From a virus, in the IMG/VR virus record IMGVR_UViG_3300033183_000149, positions 1 to 27,686 of that record: a DNA stretch of 27,686 nt; one strand, given 5' to 3'. This document shows positions 1,597 through 27,686 of the stretch, one piece after another. The position numbers and the translations under genes were made by a program. Numbering within the stretch: position 1 is the first letter of the stretch; the number at the start of each line of letters is the position of its first letter. The notes under the pieces were generated by a model. That model was not told the DNA's origin and did not search any database. It saw only the letters and a list, made by a program, of their open reading frames with translations.

Positions 1597-1728
1597 ATGG
1601 GTTTAAAACAAAAACTACAGCCAGTATGTAATAAAGTAAAGGGTTTTTTAAAAGCCGTTTGTAACAAAGTAAAGGCGTTTTTTAAGGCTATCTTTAGATG
1701 TATATGCGAATTTAACGACTGTTGGTAA
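1597..1728 (+). CDS. 43-aa cationic Cys-rich peptide with 11-residue repeats
   Basis: A small gene, too short for a usual ORF list, fitted between the fibre gene (stop at 1592-1594) and the next ATG (TAATG overlap at 1726-1730). Its product has 8 Lys, 1 Arg and only 2 acidic residues (net about +7), 5 Cys and a C-terminal Trp. Residues 10-20 (VCNKVKGFLKA) and 21-31 (VCNKVKAFFKA) are near-perfect 11-mers. Residues 32-42 (IFRCICEFNDC) may be a decayed third copy. The DNA repeats with the same 33-base period. An 11-residue period with alternating Lys and hydrophobic residues is typical of a surface-lying amphipathic helix. It leads directly into the lysis and membrane genes, so a membrane-active or lysis-helper role is plausible. 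I recognise no family. Confidence 0.75.
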   Translation: MGLKQKLQPVCNKVKGFLKAVCNKVKAFFKAIFRCICEFNDCW

Positions 1729-2100: not shown

Positions 2101-2412
2101 ATGGAAGGCTGGACCCAAATTGTAATAACTATAGTAGGCGTTTTAGGTAGTGCTAGTATATGGAAGTATTTAGAAGCTAGACTAAAAACTAAAACCGAAC
2201 TAAAAAAAGACGAACTGCAAAACAGCGACGGTGTGCAATATAGGGACGACTTAAAAGCTAGAGTAAGAAACCTAGAAACTTTACTAAGCAGCGCCAGCGA
2301 CGAAAAAGATGAACTACGTAACCAAATACTAGACCTTACAGCGGAAGTAAACGCGCTACGCGTTAAGGTGGAATTTTTGGCAAAAGAAAACGAACGGCTT
2401 AAAAATAAGTAG
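2101..2412 (+). CDS. N-terminal TM plus coiled-coil protein, i-spanin-like topology
   Basis: A 103-aa protein with one N-terminal hydrophobic segment (residues 5-23, TQIVITIVGVLGSASIWKY) followed by about 75 charged residues with strong heptad character (LKARVRNLETLLSS, then LDLTAEVNALRVKVEFL). This is the topology of inner-membrane spanin subunits and also of many small phage accessory proteins. It lies one base after the multi-TM gene and 6 bases before the endolysin, as expected for a lysis gene. No lipoprotein signal (o-spanin lipobox) is seen overlapping or downstream, so a complete two-component spanin cannot be claimed. Function is inferred from topology and position only. Confidence 0.6.
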   Translation: MEGWTQIVITIVGVLGSASIWKYLEARLKTKTELKKDELQNSDGVQYRDDLKARVRNLETLLSSASDEKDELRNQILDLTAEVNALRVKVEFLAKENERLKNK

Positions 2413-2418
2413 TAGTAT

Positions 2419-2772
2419 ATGAAGTATTTTTCTATAGCAGAATTTGACAGCCCAGATGCGCCGTATAGTGGTACAAATATGAACCAGGAACTACTAGAAC
2501 TACTAGACGAAATGCGCGAAATTTACGGCAAGCCTATAGTAATTACAAGCGGCTACAGGACTAAAGAACATAACAAAGAAGTAGGCGGCAAAGAAAACAG
2601 CAGCCACCTAAAGGGGCTAGCGGTAGATATAGGAATAGAAAACAGTAACCAGCGCTACGAAATAATACGTATAGCTATGCTGTTAGGAATTAAGCGTATA
2701 GGAACTGGCAAAGGTTTTGTACATATTGATATAGATGCTAGCAAACCGCAAAACGTAAACTGGGTATACTAA
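2419..2772 (+). CDS. Peptidase M15-family endolysin
   Basis: A 117-aa zinc peptidase expected to cut peptidoglycan stem peptides at lysis. The M15_3 pattern is complete: ITSGYRT (42-48), SSHLKGLAVDI (61-71), which supplies zinc ligands His63 and Asp70 in the S.H..G.A.D motif, and FVHIDID (100-106) with the third ligand His102. Length is normal for the single-domain M15_3 type, and there is no cell-wall-binding domain. There is no signal peptide, so export should need the holin encoded just downstream (TAATG overlap at 2770-2774). Whether it is a DD-carboxypeptidase-like or an L-alanyl-D-glutamate type cannot be told from sequence alone. Confidence 0.88.
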   Translation: MKYFSIAEFDSPDAPYSGTNMNQELLELLDEMREIYGKPIVITSGYRTKEHNKEVGGKENSSHLKGLAVDIGIENSNQRYEIIRIAMLLGIKRIGTGKGFVHIDIDASKPQNVNWVY

Positions 2773-3158
2773 TGAAACAACTACTAGCTAAACTTTTAGG
2801 ACTTAATAGCAGCGGCGAAAGCAGCTTAGGCAGTTTCGCTAAAGACCTACGCGAAGCTATAAAGGGCAAAGAAATAGACCCAGAAAAAGCCCTAGAACTA
2901 ATAAGAGTACAGAACGAAGTAAACAAAATAGAAGCTCAGCACCGTAGTATATTTGTGGCTGGCTGGCGTCCCTTTATTGGCTGGGTATGCGGTGTAGCAC
3001 TTTTGTACAACTTTATACTGCGCGATATTATAGCCTGGGCTAGCCCTAATATAATGCCGCCAGCTTTACAAATGGAACACCTACTAACTGTACTTATGGG
3101 TATGCTAGGGCTAGGTGGACTTCGCACCTACGAAAAACTAAAAGACAAAACTAAGTAA
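2772..3158 (+). CDS. Holin, 3-TM type (GTA_holin_3TM-like)
   Basis: A 128-aa protein. Residues 1-55 are soluble and charged (FAKDLREAIKGKEIDPEKA). The segment FVAGWRPFIGWVCGVALLYN (56-75) carries the 'WRPFIGW' signature seen in 3-TM holins of the gene-transfer-agent type. Further hydrophobic stretches lie at about 67-85 and 101-118, and the end is basic (YEKLKDKTK). It follows the endolysin with TAATG overlap and should make the inner-membrane lesion that releases it. The unusually long soluble N-terminus is common in this family. Its stop overlaps the next ATG, so five genes from 1597 to 3289 look co-translated. Confidence 0.8.
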   Translation: MKQLLAKLLGLNSSGESSLGSFAKDLREAIKGKEIDPEKALELIRVQNEVNKIEAQHRSIFVAGWRPFIGWVCGVALLYNFILRDIIAWASPNIMPPALQMEHLLTVLMGMLGLGGLRTYEKLKDKTK

Positions 3159-3289
3159 TGGCTAAACTACCGCAGTTTGTATTTAGGGCTAACGCTAAGA
3201 CTAAACGCCCAGGTAAACATAGTAAGAACGCAAGCCCAGGACAAAAGGGCTATAAGAAGCCTAGACGCGGACAGGGTAAACGCCGTTAG
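3158..3289 (+). CDS. 43-aa highly basic small protein
   Basis: Starts inside the holin stop (TAATG). The product is extremely basic: about 16 Lys/Arg and no acidic residue in 43 positions, with Gly/Pro-rich turns (KRPGKHSKNASPGQK, then KKPRRGQGKRR at the end). It has no hydrophobic core and is probably disordered or nucleic-acid binding. Comparable 'KRPG.HSK...GYKKP.RGQGK' peptides occur in other Bacteroidota phage genomes next to structural genes, from general familiarity rather than a search. It could be a DNA- or RNA-binding virion peptide, or a cationic lysis helper. No function is assigned. Confidence 0.65.
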   Translation: MAKLPQFVFRANAKTKRPGKHSKNASPGQKGYKKPRRGQGKRR

Positions 3290-27271: not shown

Positions 27272-27598
27272 ATGGACGCTGGGAAGTTTAACACGCAAAT
27301 AGACGTAATAAGGCTAACTAAAACAGCCGACCAGTTTGGGGGGTTTACTTCTACCGAAGCTGTGGTAGCTACTGTTTGGGCTGGACTAGAATATACTAAA
27401 GGCGAAATAAAAAGCGAAAACGGACAGCGCCAGCACTTTGTAGGTATTGAGTTAAAAATGCGTAAAAGAACAGCGGACACTATACAAGACCAGGACGTAC
27501 TACAGGTAGAAGGCGCAGGACCTAAGTACAGAATAAACAGTATAGTAGAAAATAGCCAAGACTTTTATACTACGCTAACCGCTACAAAAATAGACTAA
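27272..27598 (+). CDS. Head closure / head-tail adaptor protein (SPP1 gp16-like)
   Basis: The 108-aa product starts at the ATG at 27272; an in-frame TTG nine bases upstream overlaps the previous gene and is less likely. The family pattern is visible: DAGKFNTQIDVIRLTKTADQ, then FGGFTSTEAVVATVWAGLEY (23-42), KMRKRTADTIQDQDVLQVEG and YRINSIVENSQDFYTTLTAT near the end. It plugs the connector and joins the tail. TAATG overlap with the gp10-like gene. Its last 53 bases reappear at the window start. Confidence 0.85.
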   Translation: MDAGKFNTQIDVIRLTKTADQFGGFTSTEAVVATVWAGLEYTKGEIKSENGQRQHFVGIELKMRKRTADTIQDQDVLQVEGAGPKYRINSIVENSQDFYTTLTATKID

Positions 27599-27686
27599 TG
27601 AACGCTAAGATAAACCCACAGGACCTGGCTATACTAGACAAAAAGCTAAAGCAGCTTAAAAGGTTTTCGCGCCAGGAACTTAGCAA
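27546..27686. repeat. Direct terminal repeat, right copy
   Basis: Identical to 1-141. It repeats the head-closure gene end and the first 89 bases (from 27598) of the gp10-like gene, which is complete at 53-508. Confidence 0.95.
27598..27686 (+). CDS. Partial duplicate of the gp10-like gene (contig overlap)
   Basis: The first 29 codons of the gene at 53-508, cut by the end of the sequence. Not a second gene. Confidence 0.9.
   Translation, partial: MNAKINPQDLAILDKKLKQLKRFSRQELS

Follow-up and report, generated by a model that had tools for sequence, protein, structure and literature searches.

The 43-aa peptide encoded at positions 1597-1728 of the window, which spans all 27,686 nt of the virus record analysed, is by the comparison of its homologues a genuine conserved coding gene. 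On the evidence of a natural exchange between two close relatives, its gene also comes first in a transferable cassette of three genes, peptide–p5–p6, that is exchanged as one block. The peptide probably acts on a cell membrane during infection, because it travels with two membrane-protein genes and occupies with them the slot of a small holin-like protein. About an even chance is given to the more specific reading that it represents a new small family, in which a single cationic amphipathic helix would lie on the inner-membrane surface and serve the p5–p6 cassette.

Perfect 141-nt direct terminal repeats (1-141 and 27546-27686) suggest that the record is a complete genome, circular or circularly permuted, of 27,545 nt. 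The recognisable genes were all located on one strand. The phage probably infects Bacteroidota, since the large terminase was closest to those of Phocaeicola vulgatus phages (41%). The gene order was gene 1001-1594, peptide, p5, p6, M15 endolysin, 3-TM holin and a small basic gene, and both of the lysis genes that the original prediction had placed beside the peptide were thus present (Table 1). The last gene in this series is a second tiny basic gene (3158-3289; 43 aa, +15, KHSKNASPGQKGYKKPRRGQGKRR), which close relatives conserve downstream of the holin and which immediately precedes the peptide gene in L116 and L118.

Table 1. Positions of the peptide gene, its parts and the neighbouring genes in the window.
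Feature	Position	Strand	Basis and remarks
43-aa cationic amphipathic peptide gene, cassette gene 1	1597..1728	+	ORF; six-member family; dN < dS; AF2 single helix
11-residue repeat copy 1, VCNKVKGFLKA	1624..1656	+	Self-match shuffles; K[IVL]K spacing
11-residue repeat copy 2, VCNKVKAFFKA	1657..1689	+	Self-match shuffles; K[IVL]K spacing; differs from copy 1 mainly synonymously
C-terminal cap IFRCICEFNDCW, ends in family motif E-(F/L)-N-D-(C/S)-W	1690..1725	+	Alignment A3
p5, 4-TM membrane protein with N-terminal amphipathic helix	1728..2099	+	ATG overlaps peptide stop (TAATG); 70 distinct loci; unannotated family
p6, N-terminal TM and coiled coil	2101..2412	+	After p5 or p5 paralogue in 67/70 loci
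M15 peptidase endolysin	2419..2772	+	Pfam PF08291, phrog_894; swap boundary; cassette flank, outside swapped unit
3-TM holin (GTA_holin_3TM)	2772..3158	+	PF11351, phrog_3427; outside swapped unit

The peptide gene and its family

The ORF was present as originally predicted, with an ATG start, a 43-aa product (MGLKQKLQPVCNKVKGFLKAVCNKVKAFFKAIFRCICEFNDCW), five Cys residues and a net charge of +7. The two near-identical 11-mers were also real (p = 0.0005 for the best self-match, relative to composition-shuffled sequences). The DNA of the two copies differed by five synonymous and two nonsynonymous changes over 6.5 and 26.5 sites, respectively, and by this measure the duplicated repeat is retained as protein after duplication. 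The segment that follows had been described as a decayed third copy. A third copy at 1690-1725 was rejected on the corresponding test (p = 0.14) and on the homologues, in which this segment is conserved as a C-terminal cap.

Six distinct, unannotated members of the family were found, namely, the window peptide and those in L082 (36 aa), L087 (30 aa), L116 (49 aa), L117/L118 (42 aa) and L147 (46 aa). The five further members were obtained by scanning IMG/VR with the p5 family and inspecting the upstream region; hence, the search itself accounts in part for their position next to p5. Peptide-only pattern scans, which were independent of p5, returned no family member without p5. The peptides of L116 and L117/L118 were assigned a GTG start by our own reading because no in-frame ATG was present there. 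The homologue search provided the family with a kept reading frame that the prediction called for. The indels among members were in-frame, and the substitutions were biased towards synonymous sites (dN 0.28 and dS 1.19 for window versus L082; dN 0.16 and dS 0.93 for L116 versus L117). The stop codon of the peptide overlapped the p5 start as TAATG in the window, L082, L087 and L116, and in L117 and L147 it lay no more than 2 nt from that start. The coding status of the gene is supported by these three features, the last of which holds for 6/6 members. Single-sequence searches of annotated phage genomes with the peptide gave chance matches only, no match above cut-off was obtained in Pfam, NCBIfam or PADLOC (the best PHROG match had an E of 0.04), and the plasmid search gave no match. 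The family shows that genes of 30-49 aa can be conserved, modular and easily overlooked by annotation; some of its genes are apparently GTG-started and overlap the preceding gene.

According to alignment A3, the repeat has the form [VIL]-C-x-K-[IV]-K and is followed by a cap ending in EFND[CS]W, with the variants ELNDCW in L116 and EFTETMY in L147. K[IVL]K occurred at residues 13 and 24 in the window peptide, 8, 19 and 30 in L116, 8 and 19 in L117, and 4, 15 and 26 in L147. The spacing was always 11 in the four of six members with recurrence, and the shuffle probabilities were 0.0009 (window), 3e-5 (L116), 2.5e-3 (L117) and 3e-5 (L147). Thus, of the features expected to be conserved, the 11-residue repeat was upheld with a varying repeat number, and the Cys residues were not. 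The members contained 5, 2, 3, 8, 3 and 4 Cys residues, and the six-member alignment had no invariant Cys column. Cys was replaced by Ser or Phe, and the terminal Cys alternated with Ser. The earlier suggestion that Cys pairing acts as a redox switch was rejected on these grounds, and with two to eight Cys and no invariant column the family lacks the Cys framework of saposin-like proteins and NK-lysin. The possibility that the peptide is a truncated copy of the p5 N-terminus was also discarded, because only one member reached p = 0.014 and the others gave 0.07-0.48.

The net charge ranged from +4 to +10 and muH18 from 0.57 to 0.70 across the six members. The amphipathicity was significant in all six (18- and 22-residue windows), and the moment peaked at 96-100 degrees in each. 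In charge and moment jointly, the window peptide (muH 0.64) was in the top 0.5% of 1,690 small ORFs from these phages. AF2 modelled it as one helix over residues 3-42 with a pLDDT of 82, which is a weak test for such a sequence. These values agree with the proposal that an amphipathic cationic 11-residue repeat suits a helix lying on a membrane. Scans for TM-grade segments and lipoboxes found neither a TM segment nor a lipoprotein signal in the peptide. Moreover, 11 residues correspond to about three helical turns; therefore, on physical grounds, the gain or loss of a unit would lengthen or shorten the helix while the same face is kept.

The peptide–p5–p6 cassette

Close relatives for the comparison of this region were located via the holin gene. 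Up to the stop of gene 1001-1594, L082 and L002 shared 99.1% identity across 2,421 nt; from the final bases of p6 onward, the identity was 95% across 1,169 nt. Between these points, L082 carried exactly peptide–p5–p6, whereas L002 carried a single 54-aa hydrophobic protein, and it is this exchange that makes the peptide part of a three-gene cassette. The 54-aa protein had a weak holin-family match (phrog_920, E 0.009). Its relatives of 51-52 aa occupied the slot in L003, L009, L010 and L011, and the L004/L005 slot held a relative together with 85- and 110-aa proteins. In 13 relatives with a slot protein of the 54-aa type, several of which are short fragments, no p5 was found, and the 52-aa slot protein was absent from the tested peptide-bearing records. 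The cassette and the small slot protein are therefore mutually exclusive in the tested records. The slot before the endolysin in L004 (4864-5604; G034) encodes 52-, 85- and 110-aa membrane-type proteins.

The location of the cassette was not constant. In G003 and G004, which are syntenic relatives of the window (terL 72-73%, MCP 74%), it was positioned between portal and MuF, with the endolysin and holin some 8 kb away, and the M15 gene of G004 directly followed gene 1001, so that the slot between the two was empty. The lysis genes adjoined the peptide in the window, L082 and L147 but not in G003 and G004. Taken with the L082/L002 swap, this placement indicates co-inheritance of the peptide with p5 and p6 rather than with the endolysin and holin.

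The p5–p6 pair (1728-2412) was unannotated in Pfam and NCBIfam, and neither protein matched annotated phage genomes (INPHARED). The search of bacterial genomes detected p5 in one Pseudomonadales MAG only. The AF2 model of p5 was a four-helix membrane protein with an additional N-terminal helix (pLDDT 81; 3-4 TM). The fold search with p5 returned generic helical bundles only (highest Z 8.9), its viral matches all had an E of at least 0.19, and p5 matched no holin or spanin family. Among the 70 distinct p5 loci, p6 was next or next-but-one in 67, with a p5 paralogue intervening in 24, and p5 often adjoined M15 or amidase genes in other phages. The peptide was absent from about 64 of these loci, and p5 is thus independent of it; all six peptide genes were directly upstream of p5. 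The peptide evolves much faster than its partner (window versus L082, pN 0.23 for the peptide and 0.019 for p5), which fits a loosely constrained membrane activity and a specific partner equally.

The charge flanking the TM segment of p6 was -1.1 before and +2.6 after it and was more positive after it in 67/67 cases. This distribution suggests an N-out/C-in topology, opposite to that of an i-spanin, although a TM segment and a coiled coil are common to both. The weak matches of p6 were LysB TIGR03495 (E 0.004, far below its cut-off) and phrog_13 (E 0.007).

Proposed function at the inner membrane

In the favoured reading, the peptide would be made in the cytosol and would coat the inner face of the cytoplasmic membrane via its hydrophobic face (Val/Ile/Leu/Phe/Cys), with the Lys face directed to the lipid head groups. 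The family design consists of one to three 11-residue repeats and the conserved EFND(C/S)W cap, and a change in repeat number would alter the length of the helix and not its face. The membrane-bound peptide may then assist or tune p5, with its four TM segments, and p6, with its TM segment and probably cytosolic coiled coil. The cassette may supply a holin-like or lysis-timing membrane function, for which relatives would use one membrane protein of 52-54 aa instead. We infer the binding to the inner leaflet, the assistance to p5 and p6, and this role of the cassette, the last because of the natural swap with the weakly holin-like 54-aa protein.

Several observations count against this view of the cassette. 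A 3-TM holin is already present in the window, which leaves no obvious need for another holin-like function; the 54-aa protein matches the holin family only weakly, and the fold search with p5 was uninformative. Considered as a holin, the peptide itself lacks the TM helix of which a holin has at least one. It shares with the phrog_920-type small holin the same exchangeable slot, from gene 1001-1594 to the endolysin, but differs in having no TM segment, and the exchange is of one membrane protein for three genes. Furthermore, a lysis role is not secured for the cassette because of its position away from the endolysin and holin in G003 and G004. It is put forward only tentatively, as a possibility well short of even, that peptide–p5–p6 is a new type of lysis or lysis-timing cassette. 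It would comprise a 4-TM inner-membrane protein, a cytosol-facing coiled-coil anchor and a helix with a length determined by its 11-residue units, and it could take the place of a single small holin-like protein in phages that are otherwise nearly identical. If the cassette acts in lysis, the near-isogenic L082 and L002 offer a natural experiment at hand, as they differ over the compared stretch in almost nothing but the cassette.

Possible spanin replacement and other explanations

It is an open problem how the outer membrane is breached by phages that infect Gram-negative hosts and have no recognisable spanins. Such phages made up about 13% of the genomes surveyed in PMC6139136, among them Bacteroides phage B124-14 and Croceibacter phages P2559S and P2559Y; spanin-less phages of the Bacteroidota are on record in that survey. 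The original prediction was that the peptide may disrupt the outer membrane in place of spanins, in the manner of gp28 of Escherichia phage phiKT, the disruptin archetype (Holt et al., 2022, as summarised in PMC12819732). In such a reading, the cationic helix would be released after the action of holin and endolysin. This mechanism is possible, though rather unlikely, and is not favoured over an inner-membrane role with p5 and p6. The two peptides are alike as short cationic amphipathic helices; according to the charge and moment from PMC12819732 and the phiKT record, gp28 has +7 and a muH of 0.68, versus +7 and 0.64 for the window peptide. Like phiKT, the window has no recognisable spanin by the lipobox scan, and in the window an endolysin and a holin are close by, as lysis genes are in L082 and L147 but not in G003 and G004. 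The PDB profile search with the peptide gave eight matches only, including NK-lysin, CAP18 and amoebapore A, which have similar cationic amphipathic helical segments; these matches were not significant (E 0.2-0.34), and the peptide differs in lacking both a secretion signal and a conserved Cys framework. The likeness to gp28 does not extend to sequence, as the gp28 query matched nothing in the fetched loci. Unlike gp28, the peptide has 11-residue repeats, many Cys residues and the conserved EFND(C/S)W cap, and it is tied to the p5–p6 membrane cassette, sometimes away from lysis genes.

The absence of an o-spanin was confirmed insofar as the lipobox scan of the complete window genome detected no lipoprotein of spanin type on the coding strand. 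The peptide resembles two-component and unimolecular spanins in being encoded near lysis genes in a phage of a Gram-negative host, but it has neither lipobox nor TM segment, and no hydrophobic signal precedes any of its Cys residues, as the N-terminal signal and lipobox Cys of an o- or u-spanin would require. The step from a missing o-spanin to a spanin replacement was not supported. Most p5 loci without the peptide likewise had no spanin-like lipoprotein in the flank. The argument is weak because the complete relative G034, with terminal repeats of 127 nt and an nt identity of 85% over 23 kb, has neither peptide, p5 nor coding-strand lipoprotein and carries a different gene set in the slot. 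The placement between portal and MuF in G003 and G004 and the L087 member, with 30 aa and a charge of only +4, also speak against a disruptin. Lipoprotein candidates were nearby in about 9/64 distinct non-peptide p5 loci versus 0/6 peptide loci; spanin absence was discarded as a discriminator because these counts are too few and many flanks are short. Good spanin candidates that combine a lipobox with a TM segment at the C-terminus were found in the peptide-less p5 phages G012, G013 and G029-G031. Candidate unimolecular spanins of 138-157 aa with these two features were noted at L206 10940, L210 12845, L227 11442, L228 8569 and L229 3639, in p5-bearing phages that lack the peptide.

It is unlikely that peptide–p5–p6 forms an inner-membrane module with no part in lysis, for example, one for superinfection exclusion or host-envelope takeover, whose accessory nature would explain its variable position. 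The differing genome sites of the cassette, its replaceability and absence from G034, the coiled coil of p6 that is predicted from charge to be cytosolic, and the lack of a holin or spanin family for p5 are consistent with such a module. However, the small protein that occupies the slot instead, immediately upstream of the endolysin, is weakly holin-like, and the frequent M15 or amidase neighbours of p5 in other phages also count against such a module. A nucleic-acid-binding or virion-packaged basic peptide is very doubtful: basic proteins from several unrelated families do precede p5, but they are Lys/Arg/Gly-rich, whereas this peptide is hydrophobic-amphipathic, with many Cys and Phe residues. 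A functionless leader frame, the translation of which merely couples ribosomes to p5, would agree with the close stop/start junction but is most improbable given the amino-acid conservation (dN < dS), the conserved cap, the 11-residue periodicity and the amphipathicity.

With regard to the cassette, the slot upstream of p5 behaves as if it takes alternative small proteins. Another family of 36-38 aa (DTVEFK..LP..KRLW..) was located directly upstream of p5 in phages without this peptide (L084 5885-5995, L088 about 1170-1280 and L130 3882-3998).
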